Shown: in pieces, positions 24,411 to 31,685 of the stretch
Numbering within the stretch: position 1 is the stretch's first letter
Layout: every line of letters begins with the position of its first letter
From: Planctomyces sp. SH-PL62
GTDB taxonomy: Bacteria; Planctomycetota; Planctomycetia; Isosphaerales; Isosphaeraceae
Assembly: GCF_001610895.1 (NCBI RefSeq)
Contig: NZ_CP011273.1
Location: forward strand, 4,712,001-4,776,000
Direction: 5' to 3'
DNA length: 64,000 bases
Translations under genes and position numbers: made by a program
Notes under the pieces: model-generated
The model's database searches: none
The model's input: only the letters and a program-made list of their open reading frames with translations
Told to the model about the DNA's origin: nothing

Positions 24411-25423
24411 TCAGCGAGCGGAACCGGACCCGGCCGCGGCGGATCGATCGGCGGTCGAATGCGCCGGGGCGAACAGGTCGGCGAGGGCTCCGGCCAGGTC
24501 GGGGAAGCGGAATTTGTAGCCGAGATCGGACGCCCGGCGAGGGATGACGCGCTGGCCCTTGGCGATGACCTCGGCGACCTCGCCCAGCACCACCCGGAGG
24601 AGGAGATCGGGCGGGCCGAAGGGGAGGAAGACGCGCCACGGGGCGTAGGGCTTCCAGAGGGTCCGCGAGAGCTCCCGCGAGAAGTCGGCGTTGCGGACCG
24701 GATGGGGTGCCACGCCATTGATGGGGCCGGTCGCCCCCGGATTGCGGAGCGCGAGGTCCAGGATCCCGACGATGTCCTCGATGTGGATCCAGCTCATCCA
24801 CTGCTGCCCTCGCGCCGGGGCGAGACCGCCGTTCCCCCCACCGGCACGCCGGGGCCGAGCTTGAACAGGGGCGTCATGACCTTCAAGGCTCCATCGCCGG
24901 CGGCGAGCACGATCCCGGTCCTGACGACCGCCCGGCGAACCCCCAACGCCTCGACGGGCGCTGAGGCCTGCTCCCACTCGCGGCAGACGACCGCGAGGAA
25001 GTCGGTCCCGGACGGAGCGGACTCGTCCAGTTCCTCATCGCCGCGGGGGCCGTAGTAGCCGGTCGCCGAGCCCTGGACGAGCACCTGCGGACGGGCCCTG
25101 GCGACCGAGATCGCGGCGACGACGTGCTCCGTCCCGTCCACGCGGCTGTCGCGGATCTTCCGCTTCACCTCGGAGTTCCAGCGCTGGGCGAACACGTTGT
25201 GCCCGACGAGGTTCACCACCGCGTCGCAGCCGTCGACCGCCTGCTGCCAGGGTCCCGGAGCGGTCGGATCGCCCTGGAGCACCTCATAGTCGCGCGTCGC
25301 GGGGTCTCGACGCAGTTCATCCGCCCGACGAGACACGACGACCGGCCGATCGCCCGCCTCCAGGAGTCGACGAACCAGGTGGGTGCCGATGAGCCCGGAG
25401 CCCCCCGTGATGAAGATGCGCAT
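24411..25423 (-). pseudogene. TIGR01777-type NAD(P)-dependent epimerase (SDR), split by a one-base frameshift
   Basis: The start at 25423 gives MRIFITGGSGLIG, the Rossmann GxxGxxG (residues 7-13), then LVGHNVFAQRWN and GSATGYYGPRGDEELDE, all typical of TIGR01777/YfcH-like epimerases of about 300 residues. The first frame stops at 24794. The rest of the family (GQQWMSWIHIEDIVG, ATGPINGVAPHPV, VLGEVAEVIAKGQRVIP, LGYKFRFPDL) continues in the -1 frame to a stop at 24411. The break is at a run of six G (24834-24839): one extra G restores a single frame of about 337 residues. It is either a sequencing error, a recent inactivation, or a site of -1 frameshifting. Both halves keep family residues, arguing against long decay. 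Confidence 0.85.
24833..24839 (-). other. slippery heptamer G GGG GGA at the frame break
   Basis: On the coding strand the zero-frame codons are GTG GGG GGA ACG, so the run fits the X XXY YYZ pattern of a -1 frameshift site, and a -1 shift gives exactly the continuing frame. A small hairpin, CTCGC/GCGAG (24809-24824), begins 8 bases downstream, a usual spacing for a stimulator. In GC-rich DNA such hairpins are common by chance. Confidence 0.35.
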
Positions 25424-25652: not shown

Positions 25653-26552
25653 ATGCCCCGCCGCGTGCTCAAGTGGATCGGGTTCCCCCGCCTTCGACCC
25701 GAACGGACGTCCCACACGCCTCTGGTGCTGGTCAATGGGCTGGCCGAGCAATCGGAGAGCTGGTTCGCCAACGAGCGCCATCTGGCGAGCCGCTTCGACC
25801 TCAAGGTGCCGGAAATCCTTCTCTACGGCGGGGACGCCCTGCACCGCTGGATCGACGCGGGCAACGACGTCACGGTGGACTACCTGACGCGACGGCTGGA
25901 GACGTACCTCGACGAGTTCGTGCAGCGCCCGCCTTACCATTTCACGGCTTCGAGCCTGGGCTGTCAGGTGGTGCTGACCTACGCGGTCGCCAACCCGGAG
26001 AAGGTGGGCCGGCTCGTCTTGATCTGCCCGTCGGGCTTCCACGGCGACGAGAACCTGCCGATGATCGAGGGGGTCAGACGGAGCCGCTACGATAGCCTGG
26101 TCGCATCGGCGTTCCACGAGCCCCGATTCGCGGACGACAGGCTGGTCGGCGCCTTCGAGCGGAAATTCCAGGACCGTCGCTGGAAGAAGGGGGTTTTGCG
26201 GACGCTGCGGGGGACCGTCGGACATTCCGTGGAGCACCTGCTGCACCAGGTCGCCAGCCCGACCCTCGTGGTCTGGGGCGCGGAGGATCAGGTGCTCTCC
26301 GACGTCCCCGGCTCCATCCGCGCCGGCGATCGCATCCCGGACGTCCGCCAGGTCGTGATCCCTCAATGCGGACACGCGCCACAGATCGAAAAATCGCGAC
26401 TCGTCAATAAGTTGATCGATCGCTTCCTGAACGACCGGCTCGGCCCGCTCCCCAGCGAGCTCGACCCGTCCGGATTCCTCGTCGCCGACGCCCCGTCCGA
26501 GGCGGCCCCGCGCCTCGCCTCCCCCTCTCCGCCCCCCCTGCTCCCTTCCTGA
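25653..26552 (+). CDS. alpha/beta hydrolase
   Basis: 299 residues from the ATG at 25653, which has CAGGAG 12 bases upstream; an ATG at 25599 in the same frame has no such site. The fold shows in PLVLVNGLAEQSESW (oxyanion region), the nucleophile elbow TASSLGCQVVL with Ser101 (Ala replaces the first Gly of GxSxG), the acid WGAEDQVL and the His of CGHAPQIE. No signal peptide. It opens a plus-strand operon: its stop is about 10 bases before the methyltransferase ATG. A thioesterase or lipid esterase role in the GH3/ACP pathway is inferred from position only. Confidence 0.88.
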   Translation: MPRRVLKWIGFPRLRPERTSHTPLVLVNGLAEQSESWFANERHLASRFDLKVPEILLYGGDALHRWIDAGNDVTVDYLTRRLETYLDEFVQRPPYHFTASSLGCQVVLTYAVANPEKVGRLVLICPSGFHGDENLPMIEGVRRSRYDSLVASAFHEPRFADDRLVGAFERKFQDRRWKKGVLRTLRGTVGHSVEHLLHQVASPTLVVWGAEDQVLSDVPGSIRAGDRIPDVRQVVIPQCGHAPQIEKSRLVNKLIDRFLNDRLGPLPSELDPSGFLVADAPSEAAPRLASPSPPPLLPS

Positions 26553-26562
26553 CGCGGTGCCC

Positions 26563-27150
26563 ATGAGCGACTTCACGCTGTTCCTCGGCAAGTTCTTGAG
26601 GCAGGGGACCGCCATCGCCAGCCTCGCGCCCAGCAGCCGATGGCTGGCGCGGGCCACCCTCCGCGGCATCGACTGGGACCGTCCGAACCTCGTCGTCGAG
26701 CTCGGGGCCGGGACCGGGCCGATCACCCGCGCCCTGGCCGAACGCACAGCCGGCCGCAGCCGTGCCCTGATCGTCGAGCGCGACCCCGACTTCGCAGCGA
26801 TCCTCCGCGACCGCTACGGCGACCATCTCGACCTCGAAGTCGTCCGGGGGGACGTCCGCGACCTCGCCGACATGCTCCGCGATCGGGGAATCGAGCAGGT
26901 CGACCACATCCTCTCCGGGCTCCCGACCCCCTCGCTCCCGAAAGACCTGCAAACCAGCCTGTTCCGCGTCGTCCGGCGGGCCCTCAAGCCCGAGGGTTCG
27001 TTCAACCAGATCACCGAGATGCCGCTCGTCTATCGGGGCCTCTATCGCCGGTTCTTCGAGGACGTCCGGTTCGTCTTCGAGCCCCGCAACATCCCACCGG
27101 CCGGGGTCTACCTCTGCCGAAGGATCAAGCCCGAGGCCGTCACGTCGTGA
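26563..27150 (+). CDS. phospholipid N-methyltransferase-like SAM methyltransferase
   Basis: 195 residues (ATG at 26563; a GTG two codons earlier is possible). The N-terminus FLGKFLRQGTAIASLAPSSRWLA is characteristic of PmtA-type membrane-lipid methyltransferases. The SAM-binding motif is VVELGAGTG (about residues 44-52), with the acidic VERDPDF following and the ILSGLPTPSLP catalytic-loop motif near 123. PmtA enzymes methylate the amino group of phosphatidylethanolamine at the membrane surface. The similarity also fits rRNA dimethylase-like folds, so the substrate is not certain. Its stop TGA overlaps the GTG start of the GH3 gene, a sign of translational coupling. Confidence 0.88.
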   Translation: MSDFTLFLGKFLRQGTAIASLAPSSRWLARATLRGIDWDRPNLVVELGAGTGPITRALAERTAGRSRALIVERDPDFAAILRDRYGDHLDLEVVRGDVRDLADMLRDRGIEQVDHILSGLPTPSLPKDLQTSLFRVVRRALKPEGSFNQITEMPLVYRGLYRRFFEDVRFVFEPRNIPPAGVYLCRRIKPEAVTS

Positions 27151-28742
27151 ACGAATCCTCGCTTCTGGCGATCCTCTCCGGGTCCGCCCCGGCCCGCCGG
27201 CTGGTCAACGCGGGTTTCCATGTCCATGCGAAGATGCGGATGCGAACGCTCGCCGCCCTCGATCCCGTCCGTGAGCAGCGGCGGACCTTGCGACGGCTGG
27301 TTTCTCAGGCCCGGCGCACCCGCTTCGGCCGCGACCACGGCTTCGACGCGATTCGTACCGTCGAGGAGTACCAACGGCGCGTCCCGGCGCGCACGTACGA
27401 GGCCCTCTGGAGCGAGTATCTCCGCGACCGTTACCCCGTCTTCGAAGACCTGACGTGGCCGGGGCGCATCCCCTACCTCGCGCTCACCAGCGGCACGACC
27501 CAGGGGGCCACGAAGTACATCCCGGTGTCGCGCCAGATGGTGCGATCGAATCGCAAGGCGGCGCAGACCGTGACGGCCGCCCACATGGCGGCCCGGCCCG
27601 GCTCGAAGCTCTTCGACGGCCGCGTCTTCTTCCTGGGCGGAACCACGAAGCTGGAGGAGCCCGCGCCGGGGGTCCGGCAAGGCGACCTGAGCGGCGTCGC
27701 GGCGATCGAGCTCGCGCCGGCCCTGCGGCCCTACACGTTCCCGCCGCTCGACCTCGCCCTGGAATCCGACTGGGACCGCAAGCTCGATCGACTGGCCGAG
27801 CGGAGCCTGGCGCACAAAATCACGCTGGTGAGCGGGGTGCCGAGCTGGCTCCTCATGCTCTTTCAGCGCGTGCTCGCCCTGAGCGGCCGGTCGACGATCG
27901 CCGAGGTCTGGCCCCACCTGGAGTTGGTTGTCCACGGCGGCGTCAAATTCGACCCGTACGAGGCGACGTTCCGCGAGACGATCGGCTCGGACGAGGTCCG
28001 GCTCCAGGAGACCTACCCCTGCTCCGAGGGCTTCGTCGCCTTCGGCGACCCGGAGACCGGGCTGCTGCGGCTCCTGGTCGATCACGGTATTTTTTATGAG
28101 TTCATCCCGGTCGCCGAGTACGAGCCGGAGTCGCCCCACGCGGGCCGATACTGGCTGGAAAACGTGGAAACGGGCGTGGACTACGTCCTGGTCGTCTCGA
28201 CCTGCGCGGGGATGTGGGCGCACGTGATCGGCGACACGATCCGCTTCGAATCGCTCGACCCTCCCCTGCTCCGCTTCACCGGCCGGACCAAGTACACGCT
28301 CTCGGCGTTCGGGGAGCACCTGATCCACGAGGAGGTCGAGGCCGCACTCGCCGAGACGGCCGCCGCGACCGGGGCGACGATCCGCGAATGGCACGTCGGC
28401 CCTCGGTTCGCGGAACCGCTGGGATTCCATCAATATGTGATCGAATTCCAGGCTCGGCCGGGCGACCTGGCGACGTTCCGGTCGCGACTCGATGAAGACC
28501 TGCGCCGACGCAACGCCGACTACGACGCGCATCGACGGCCGGGCTCCGGCATCCCCGCGCCGGCCCTGATCGCGGCCCGTCCGGGAGCCTTTGAAGGCTG
28601 GATGAGGCGTCGAGGCAAGCTCGGCGGCCAGAACAAGGTTCCGCGCATGGACGCGGGGGGCGCCGCGACGCTCGACCTCGTCGACTACCTCCGCGAAGCG
28701 AAGCTGGTCGACGACGAGGCGCTGCCGGGCGATCCCCCGTGA
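27147..28742 (+). CDS. GH3-family acyl-acid-amido synthetase-like protein
   Basis: 531 residues from a GTG whose last two bases overlap the TGA of the methyltransferase (GTGA). It belongs to the GH3 branch of adenylate-forming enzymes: LALTSGTTQGATKYIPVS (ATP-binding motif, about residues 112-128), a YPCSEGFVAFGD block near residue 290 that matches the second GH3 motif, and LLRFTGRTKYTLSAFGEHL at the start of the C-terminal lid. Plant GH3 enzymes adenylate carboxylic acids and join them to amino acids. Bacterial ones are mostly uncharacterised. With an ACP gene 24 bases away on the opposite strand, the acyl acceptor or donor may be carrier-bound; that is inference. The gene is full length. 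Confidence 0.92.
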   Translation: MNESSLLAILSGSAPARRLVNAGFHVHAKMRMRTLAALDPVREQRRTLRRLVSQARRTRFGRDHGFDAIRTVEEYQRRVPARTYEALWSEYLRDRYPVFEDLTWPGRIPYLALTSGTTQGATKYIPVSRQMVRSNRKAAQTVTAAHMAARPGSKLFDGRVFFLGGTTKLEEPAPGVRQGDLSGVAAIELAPALRPYTFPPLDLALESDWDRKLDRLAERSLAHKITLVSGVPSWLLMLFQRVLALSGRSTIAEVWPHLELVVHGGVKFDPYEATFRETIGSDEVRLQETYPCSEGFVAFGDPETGLLRLLVDHGIFYEFIPVAEYEPESPHAGRYWLENVETGVDYVLVVSTCAGMWAHVIGDTIRFESLDPPLLRFTGRTKYTLSAFGEHLIHEEVEAALAETAAATGATIREWHVGPRFAEPLGFHQYVIEFQARPGDLATFRSRLDEDLRRRNADYDAHRRPGSGIPAPALIAARPGAFEGWMRRRGKLGGQNKVPRMDAGGAATLDLVDYLREAKLVDDEALPGDPP

Positions 28743-28766
28743 ACGGTCCCGCGACGCGTCGGCGCT

Positions 28767-29018
28767 TCAGGCCGCCTTCTTGTCGGCGACCAAGTCCGCG
28801 ATCTGACGGATGGAGTCCAGGTGCTCCACGCCCGCCTCGTGGGCCTCGACCGTGATGCCGAAGCGCTCTTCCAGGTAGACGACCAGCTTGAGCGTCGTGA
28901 TCGAGTCCAGGATTCCGCCGGTGATCAGCGGGGTCGACTCGGTCAGCTCGGACGGATCTTCACCGGGCAGGAACTCGTTCAGGATGAACGAGTGGACTTC
29001 TTTCTGGATCTCTTCCAT
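28767..29018 (-). CDS. acyl carrier protein
   Basis: 83 residues. Four-helix ACP pattern with the phosphopantetheine site in GGILDSITTLKL, Ser39 in the DSI variant of DSL. The acidic helix II and the VEAHEAGVEHLDSIRQIADLV ending are typical of a discrete ACP. It is clearly not the housekeeping fatty-acid ACP by context (no fab genes nearby). It starts 63 bases after the stop of the phosphodiesterase-type gene on the same strand and converges with the GH3 gene. It probably carries the acyl or aminoacyl intermediate of this locus. Confidence 0.93.
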   Translation of the reverse strand: MEEIQKEVHSFILNEFLPGEDPSELTESTPLITGGILDSITTLKLVVYLEERFGITVEAHEAGVEHLDSIRQIADLVADKKAA

Positions 29019-29081
29019 GAGTACCTCTTGCTGAGTCGGCTTGCTGGGGAACGAACGAATCGGGGACCGATTCGCGATGCG

Positions 29082-30659
29082 TCAGTCGACGCCCGCGGCG
29101 ACGACGTCGCCGATCGGCTCGGGGTCGGCGGCGACGAGATTCGGCGTCTCATACCGATGGAGAGTCGGGGGGGCTTCGAAAGCGTCCTGCAAGACGCGGC
29201 CTTCCATGAATCCGGGCGCCTCCAGGCCGAGGATCGCCAGGGAGGTCGGCGCCACGTCGTGGAGGCAGGCGTCGAGTCGCGGGCCGGGACGGACGCCCGG
29301 CGCGTCGATCGCCACGACGCCGTCGAGCCAGTGGGTGGCCGGCAAGCCGGGATCGGGTCGGAGGATCGTGTTGCGGTAGCGTTCGGACCACTTGGCCTGG
29401 GCCTGGTAGCCGTCGGCCGAGAGGGCGAAGACGTCCGGCATCCCCTGCTCGGCGGGGTCGACGCCGAAGCGGTCGGCCGTCGCGTAGACGTCCGCGAAGA
29501 GCTTCTCGCCGCGCTCGGGGTCTCGGGCGTCCTTGAGAAGGGCGACGATCTCGCGGAGCGCACGGTCCGCCGAGGCTCCCGGGACCGCCTCGCGGTTCAG
29601 GAAGACGTTGCCGCAGAGCTGGCCGAACGGGGCGAACGCGACCGTCCGCCGCCAGTCGCACGAGATCTGGCCGTCGATCGGGCGGACCTTGGCCGGCGCG
29701 GCCGCGCCGGGCTCGCGGAGCGCCCGCCAGCGTCGGAGGCGTTCGAGGAGCCGGATCGCGCGATACCGGAACCGGGTCCCGTAGACCCGCGTGCGCTGGA
29801 GGCCAGCCGCCCGGAGCATGCCGTTGACGTTGACCAGCGAGCGGCACGGGCCGAAGCCGTGATCGGAGACGACCACCACCGCCGCGTCTCGTGCGGCCGC
29901 CAGTTCCAGCAGCCTCCCGATGGAGGCGTCGAGTTCCCGGACGCAGCGTTCCACGGCGTCGGTGAAGCCGGCCTCGCGGATCCCGGTCTCGTCCACGTCG
30001 AAGTACGGCCACATCCGATGCTGGAGGCTGTCCAGGTTGTGATAGTGGACCATCATCGCGGTCCAGTCGACCTGGCCGTCGGCCTTGAGGGCCGCCTCGG
30101 CCTGGGCCCGGAAGATCGCGACGCAGCGGTCGGCCTGCTCGCGGGCCTCGTCGGCCGTCCGGGGGCGTCGCTTCCAGACGAGCTTGTTCGTGTAGGCCGG
30201 GACCTCCAGGCGGAGACGGCGGCCGAATTCGGGGCACTGGCCGAAGGCCCGCTCCGTGTCGGGGGCGTCGGCCCCGGCGACGAACAGTCCGCGCACCGGA
30301 GGTGCGGGATAGGTCAGGGGCAGGCCGAGGCTGACGACCGAGCCTCCGAGGTCGCTGAGGACTTCCCAGATCGTCGGCGTGCGGACGGTCGTCGCGTCGT
30401 GCTCGCGGATCGTCCCGTCGGAGTGGTCCAGGAAATTGAAGTCGTGGACCCCGTGGGTCAGGGGCGTGCAGCCGGTCGAGAACGAGGTCCAGGCGACGGG
30501 CGTGACCATCGGGTCGGTCGATCGCAGCCGGCCGACGGCCGAGCGTCGCCAGAGGCTCGCGAGGTTCGGCGCCCAGCCCCGGTCGAAGATCGGGTCGAGG
30601 ATCGTTCGCGTCCCTCCGTCGAGTCCCACGAAGAGCACGCGCGATGAATTCGTCGGCAT
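29082..30659 (-). CDS. alkaline-phosphatase-superfamily (type I phosphodiesterase/NPP-like) enzyme
   Basis: 525 residues from the ATG at 30659 (a TTG two codons earlier is possible). The metal-binding FVGLDGGT (Asp14) and the nucleophile region VTPVAWTSFSTG (Thr53 aligns with the NPP nucleophile) are followed by THGVHDF. The second metal site VVVSDHGFGP lies near residue 265, and a late His in YRNTILRPD/ACLHDVAPT region completes the fold. The family hydrolyses or transfers phosphate mono- and diesters. No signal peptide is evident, so it may act in the cytosol. It precedes the ACP gene. It may act on a phospholipid head group or on the product of the GH3 pathway; this is inferred from location. 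Confidence 0.88.
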   Translation of the reverse strand: MPTNSSRVLFVGLDGGTRTILDPIFDRGWAPNLASLWRRSAVGRLRSTDPMVTPVAWTSFSTGCTPLTHGVHDFNFLDHSDGTIREHDATTVRTPTIWEVLSDLGGSVVSLGLPLTYPAPPVRGLFVAGADAPDTERAFGQCPEFGRRLRLEVPAYTNKLVWKRRPRTADEAREQADRCVAIFRAQAEAALKADGQVDWTAMMVHYHNLDSLQHRMWPYFDVDETGIREAGFTDAVERCVRELDASIGRLLELAAARDAAVVVVSDHGFGPCRSLVNVNGMLRAAGLQRTRVYGTRFRYRAIRLLERLRRWRALREPGAAAPAKVRPIDGQISCDWRRTVAFAPFGQLCGNVFLNREAVPGASADRALREIVALLKDARDPERGEKLFADVYATADRFGVDPAEQGMPDVFALSADGYQAQAKWSERYRNTILRPDPGLPATHWLDGVVAIDAPGVRPGPRLDACLHDVAPTSLAILGLEAPGFMEGRVLQDAFEAPPTLHRYETPNLVAADPEPIGDVVAAGVD

Positions 30660-30938: not shown

Positions 30939-31685
30939 ATGACCGCACGGAAGCCGACAGTCTCCCGCTGCTCGCGGAGGACCATGATCCTCGCGGGGCT
31001 GTCGACGGCCCTCGTCCTTTCGGGACCGGGCTGCGGTGGGCATCGCCTGCGTAAAGAGTCCGATCGCGTCCCTTATCGTGGCCTGATCGACCCCGACCAG
31101 GCGCGAGAGCTGGACAAGACCACGATGCCCAGGTACGTGGTCGAGCCTCCGGACGAGCTGGACGTCACGGTCAAGCCGTTGCCGGCCGACTGGGCCCCGT
31201 CGTCGTTCGTGGTGCAGGCCGACGGCCTGGTCGACCTGGGCCTCTACGGCGACGTCTACGTCGTCGGCCTCACCCTCGACCAGATCGAGGAGAAGGTCGC
31301 CCAGCAGCTCACGCTCGACGCCCTCAAGCGCGGACAGAAGCCGTCGGAGCCCTATCGGGTCTCGGTGCGGCTGAGTGCGTCCCAGAGCAAGCATTACTAC
31401 GTGCTCGGGACGGTCGGAACCGAAGGGAAATTCCCGATCAAGGGGAACGAGACGGCCCTCGACGCCATCCTCCTGGCGGGGCTCAAGTCCAACAGCCTCC
31501 CCGAGAAGGCGTACCTCGTCCGTCCCCACTCCGCGGGGGGCGTGGACCAGGTGCTCCGCATCGACTGGTGCGCCATCAAGGATCGCGGCGACACCCTCAC
31601 CAATTATCAGCTCTTCCCGGGCGACCGCATCGTCGTCCCCGGCACCCGGCCCCCCAGCCTGATCGCGACCCTGCTGGGCCGCTGA
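30939..31685 (+). CDS. polysaccharide biosynthesis/export (Wza-like) lipoprotein
   Basis: 248 residues with GAGGTG upstream of the ATG. A basic N-terminus, a hydrophobic segment and a Cys at residue 32 (LVLSGPGC) suggest a lipoprotein, although the lipobox is not ideal. The Poly_export domain begins near residue 65 (MPRYVVEPPDELDVTV) with VVQADGLVDLGLYGDVYVVGLTLDQIE. An SLBB-like segment follows (KHYYVLGTVGTEGKFPI, ALDAILLAGL), ending with the usual LFPGDRIVVP. These proteins form the outer export channel or its collar for exopolysaccharide. No polymerase or kinase partner is next to it. Confidence 0.9.
   Translation: MTARKPTVSRCSRRTMILAGLSTALVLSGPGCGGHRLRKESDRVPYRGLIDPDQARELDKTTMPRYVVEPPDELDVTVKPLPADWAPSSFVVQADGLVDLGLYGDVYVVGLTLDQIEEKVAQQLTLDALKRGQKPSEPYRVSVRLSASQSKHYYVLGTVGTEGKFPIKGNETALDAILLAGLKSNSLPEKAYLVRPHSAGGVDQVLRIDWCAIKDRGDTLTNYQLFPGDRIVVPGTRPPSLIATLLGR

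Follow-up and report, generated by a model that had tools for sequence, protein, structure and literature searches.

A GH3-dependent route to ornithine lipids (OLs) has been described in Singulisphaera acidiphila, where it is encoded by the operon Sinac_1599-1601 (Rivera-Najera et al., J Biol Chem 2025; PMC12493201). In that organism, OlsH attaches a fatty acid to ornithine in a reaction needing ATP and Mg2+, OlsI completes the ornithine lipid in cell extracts, and OlsG, described earlier, methylates the delta-nitrogen; the trimethyl ornithine lipid is lost in an olsH mutant (PMC12493201). The OlsBA and OlsF pathways lead to the same product class, but their enzymes are unrelated (PMC12493201), and neither OlsBA nor OlsF was found at the locus described here. 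Methylated OLs made by the OlsI-OlsG-OlsH set serve in the membranes of soil and peat planctomycetes. Trimethylornithine lipid is among the major membrane lipids of Paludisphaera borealis, and the Gemmataceae Fimbriiglobus ruber and Limnoglobus roseus are also listed with trimethylornithines (PMC7828035).

The window analyzed here is a stretch of 64,000 nucleotides of DNA from Planctomyces sp. SH-PL62. The genomes nearest to it include Paludisphaera soli (G003), and on this closeness its genome is assigned to the genus Paludisphaera. The initial annotation had proposed an uncharacterised locus of five genes at 25653-30659, all of which proved real in placement and strand on the basis of open reading frame coordinates and domain matches. 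These genes and the export gene beyond them are as follows.

olsI, 25653-26552, plus strand: alpha/beta-hydrolase-fold O-acyltransferase predicted to convert lyso-OL to OL (NCBIfam NF052614)
olsG, 26563-27150, plus strand: predicted ornithine lipid N-methyltransferase (NCBIfam NF041658 and identity to S. acidiphila OlsG)
olsH, 27147-28742, plus strand, GTG start: predicted GH3-family lyso-ornithine lipid (N-acyl ornithine) synthetase (NCBIfam NF052613)
ACP gene, 28767-29018, minus strand: discrete acyl carrier protein (NCBIfam NF052616)
AlkP-superfamily phosphodiesterase (PDE) gene, 29082-30659, minus strand: type I phosphodiesterase-like (Pfam Phosphodiest, 109.4 bits)
export gene, 30939-31685, plus strand: Poly_export protein (Pfam Poly_export, 43.6 bits)

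The GTGA overlap reported inside the plus-strand set was seen at 27147-27150, where the olsG stop overlaps the olsH GTG start. The plus- and minus-strand sets are indeed convergent, with a gap of 24 bases between olsH and the ACP gene (28742/28767), whereas the corresponding gap in S. acidiphila spans about 2.8 kb and holds a PEP-CTERM-type gene and another open reading frame. The two sets do not make up a single locus, however. The plus strand almost certainly carries the OlsI-OlsG-OlsH operon of the GH3-dependent OL pathway, with the ACP and the AlkP-superfamily enzyme belonging to a separate, family-wide, export-linked unit that is conserved in its own right and adjacent by position only.

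The GH3 protein matched NF052613 at 977.1 bits (cut-off 620) over positions 3-524 of 524, with the GH3 N, M and C domains all present, and is 63.5% identical to Sinac_1599. Two nucleotide motifs, TSGTTQGATK (at 114) and TYPCSE (at 289), are identical to those of S. acidiphila, while the third reads GMWAHVIGD in place of GMWSHLIGD (two changes). Ser115, which is essential in S. acidiphila OlsH (PMC12493201), was invariant among 41 homologues. The orthology to the S. acidiphila enzyme points to ATP-dependent N-acylation of ornithine by the window OlsH. The fold, the ATP motifs and the formation of acyl-amino acid amides are shared with JAR1 and the other GH3 acyl-acid amido synthetases of plants, but OlsH is very distant from these (phmmer E = 1e-6 to JAR1) and differs in its lipid substrate and ornithine acceptor.

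The other two plus-strand genes were likewise assigned. OlsI scored 440.3 bits against NF052614 (cut-off 385), shares 66.3% identity with its S. acidiphila counterpart and carries Ser101, Asp212 and His241, which were invariant in 35 homologues and, from the fold, would form the catalytic triad. OlsG scored 341.5 bits against NF041658, just below the cut-off of 350, with 190 of 191 positions covered, and is 61.4% identical to the characterised S. acidiphila OlsG, whose place in the operon it shares. The initial annotation had called this protein PmtA-like, and a PmtA-type phosphatidylethanolamine methyltransferase was considered for 26563-27150; this candidate was rejected, as the PmtA match reached 52.8 bits against 341.5 for OlsG. 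Taken as a whole, the plus strand has the same three genes as Sinac_1599-1601 in the same order and orientation, with 61-66% identity and the nucleotide-binding motifs retained.

The pathway steps were shown in S. acidiphila and are expected in the window organism by orthology. OlsH would adenylate a fatty acid with ATP and couple it to ornithine through the alpha-amine to yield lyso-ornithine lipid (N-acyl ornithine); OlsI would esterify a second fatty acid onto its 3-hydroxyl, giving ornithine lipid; and OlsG would methylate the delta-nitrogen three times, giving trimethylornithine lipid, a phosphorus-free membrane lipid. A change of amino acid or fatty acid substrate in the window OlsH, leading to a related N-acyl amino-acid lipid in place of ornithine lipid, is very improbable. 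GH3 enzymes do vary in their substrates, and minor activity on lysine and arginine is reported for S. acidiphila OlsH (PMC12493201), but the level of identity and the two unchanged nucleotide motifs, the presence of the OL-specific methyltransferase OlsG in the same operon and the trimethylornithines reported in P. borealis (PMC7828035) all argue against such a change. The initial annotation had suggested an amide-linked lipid or N-methylated head group, made by the GH3 protein together with the ACP and lipid-type enzymes. For the GH3, hydrolase-fold and methyltransferase proteins this guess was a good one: their predicted product, trimethyl ornithine lipid (PMC12493201), is an amide-linked lipid whose head group is N-methylated. 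The label "uncharacterised" does not hold, since NCBIfam models exist for OlsH, OlsI, OlsG and the ACP and a 2025 paper describes the pathway as a third route to OLs (PMC12493201), so that the OlsI-G-H finding is already known.

Co-occurrence was examined in 59 relatives including Isosphaeraceae (f1) and a second group (f3), which was called Gemmataceae from the closeness of a Fimbriiglobus contig (L150) to the f3 loci (57-78%). OlsH was over cut-off in 38 of the 59 and OlsI in 37, and the two co-occur (Fisher p = 1.7e-12, 59 genomes). Three genomes showed a mismatch between them, two (G015 and G034) having genes cut by contig ends and one (G008) having a stand-alone OlsH only. The order OlsI-OlsG-OlsH was kept throughout Isosphaeraceae and in five of the six f3 loci read, and the plus-strand operon is therefore not a chance arrangement, being conserved across two families. 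In the exceptional f3 locus (G051/L068), OlsH has no adjoining OlsI or OlsG, with 2.3 kb of contig available upstream, and the OlsI gene of G051 is on a different contig; the Fimbriiglobus contig also carries OlsH without adjoining OlsI and OlsG (9 kb upstream read). OlsH and OlsI have been stated to lie always in one operon in planctomycetes (PMC12493201), and these two loci qualify that statement.

Further GH3 proteins were seen in the course of this survey. Stand-alone OlsH genes over cut-off, with neither OlsI nor OlsG in the sequence read, were found at L070, L071 and L072 (G033, G019 and G029, respectively), where they are second copies, and at L051 (G008); L070 and L071 have a TPR protein gene immediately upstream of OlsH. 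OlsH-like GH3 proteins 42-50% identical to the window OlsH are present in L151-L163 except L152 (metagenome-assembled genomes labelled Proteobacteria, Terriglobia, Verrucomicrobia and others), and homologues of OlsI, OlsG and the ACP were not detected in the flanks read of these loci. The window genome itself encodes a second GH3 protein about 13 kb past the window end (G000:C1:4788644-4790338, minus strand; L074:8644-10338), which is 23% identical to OlsH, is nearer to plant JAR1 (E = 3e-30) and has no curated equivalog. Its relatives occur in most Planctomycetia genomes searched, and in 8 of the 15 loci read an alpha/beta hydrolase gene adjoins the GH3 gene in the same orientation. The protein seems to be a further bacterial enzyme of amide formation, as yet uncharacterised.

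The minus-strand genes follow another pattern. The ACP scored 166.7 bits against NF052616 (cut-off 130), has the phosphopantetheine site GGILDS and is a clear member of this sequence family, to which NCBI curators have given the name "ornithine lipid biosynthesis acyl carrier protein". A role of the ACP in Isosphaeraceae, as supplier of the second acyl chain to OlsI or of the first one to OlsH, would fit the curated name, the gene arrangement in about half of the Isosphaeraceae with OlsH, where the two genes are directly convergent, and the room left by the OlsI acyl donor, drawn as "X" and possibly acyl-ACP (PMC12493201). We consider such a role unlikely on the basis of the distribution of the ACP. 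The family was found in all 37 Isosphaeraceae searched, with 33 over the cut-off and four just under it (125-128 bits), and these genomes include four that have no OlsH (G016, G017, G022 and G025, of which G022 is only 77% complete). Conversely, none of the 41 Gemmataceae searched had the ACP over cut-off, whereas 19 had OlsH over cut-off; trimethylornithine producers have been reported in this family (PMC7828035). OlsH is, moreover, reported to require neither ACP nor CoA, and the main text of that study mentions no neighbouring ACP or phosphodiesterase gene (PMC12493201).

Linkage gives the same picture. In 28 of the 31 loci listed, the ACP gene adjoins a polysaccharide-export gene, with the PDE gene often but not always between them; of the three loci lacking this adjacency, two (L125 and L126) are cut off by a contig end shortly beyond the PDE gene. 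The arrangement holds where OlsH is adjacent or 1-4 kb away (L038, L041, L046 and L055) and also where OlsH lies outside the region (L113-L115, L117-L120, L122, L123, L127 and L128). No ACP gene was found in the 7-9 kb read downstream of five Isosphaeraceae OlsIGH operons (L052, L056, L058, L061 and L063). At L117 (G017) and L121 (G016), the upstream neighbours and the SDR-ACP-PDE genes are retained and OlsIGH is missing, which makes OlsIGH a separable cassette in a stable neighborhood. Scored by distribution and linkage, no functional tie of the ACP to OlsH or OlsI was found, and the ACP, which had been proposed as a member of the lipid pathway, is probably not a component of it. Because its presence and position track the Poly_export gene and not OlsH, the functional name of NF052616 is doubtful and looks to have come from adjacency, as far as we infer the route by which NCBI named it.

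The SDR gene of this neighborhood (TIGR01777/ThyD-like) lies upstream of olsI in the window (24411-25423, minus strand) and is split over two frames, 24794-25423 matching positions 1-199 and 24411-24977 matching positions 198-304 of the 305-position model. The split is a frameshift, due to mutation or sequencing error; the S. acidiphila SDR gene is intact (L143:6144-7214).

The phosphodiesterase is identified in general terms by its Pfam match, with no NCBIfam equivalog, and a sequence search of the PDB returned nothing nearer than phosphonoacetate hydrolase, itself a distant match (E = 2e-5, about 100 residues aligned) that does not set the substrate. Its gene lies directly beside the ACP gene in genomes lacking OlsH as well, while many relatives with OlsIGH have no such gene near OlsH. 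Conservation with OlsH was thus not found, and by genomic context the phosphodiesterase is the predicted partner of the ACP, not of OlsH; the inclusion of an AlkP-superfamily enzyme in the lipid pathway by the initial annotation has to be given up. The same pattern bears on the reading of all five genes as one new pathway, in which a different amide lipid or a phosphorylated head group would be made and the AlkP-superfamily enzyme would act on a lipid intermediate. Tight spacing and convergence in the window speak for such a unit, but many OlsIGH-keeping relatives have no phosphodiesterase next to the ACP and OlsH, the phosphodiesterase accompanies the ACP without OlsH elsewhere, and the olsH product is already known in S. 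acidiphila; we regard this reading as very improbable. A five-gene unit was rejected because neither the phosphodiesterase nor the ACP co-varies with OlsH.

The minus-strand genes are instead conserved with the export gene. At the S. acidiphila locus (L143, NC_019892.1), the ACP, the phosphodiesterase and the export protein are 73.5%, 59.8% and 57.4% identical to their window counterparts. It is a tentative suggestion, somewhat doubtful at present, that the ACP, phosphodiesterase and Poly_export protein form an undescribed, OL-independent unit found throughout Isosphaeraceae and serving to acylate or assemble a polysaccharide for export or some other component of the envelope. The link to Poly_export faintly suggests work on an envelope polysaccharide. 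The best match of the export gene beside the ACP gene was to an XrtA/PEP-CTERM exopolysaccharide export model, below cut-off, and the PEP-CTERM-type protein gene between OlsH and the ACP gene in S. acidiphila lies at L143:10672-11436 (minus strand); together, these may be a hint to the role of the ACP unit.

If an OL-independent ACP-phosphodiesterase-export unit does exist, the functional name given to the ACP by NCBI would be wrong. Adjacency is no ground for placing the ACP and the phosphodiesterase in the OL pathway, and an automatic annotation that puts them there is probably spreading. The GH3-dependent trimethylornithine lipid route itself is general in Isosphaeraceae and common to many Gemmataceae.
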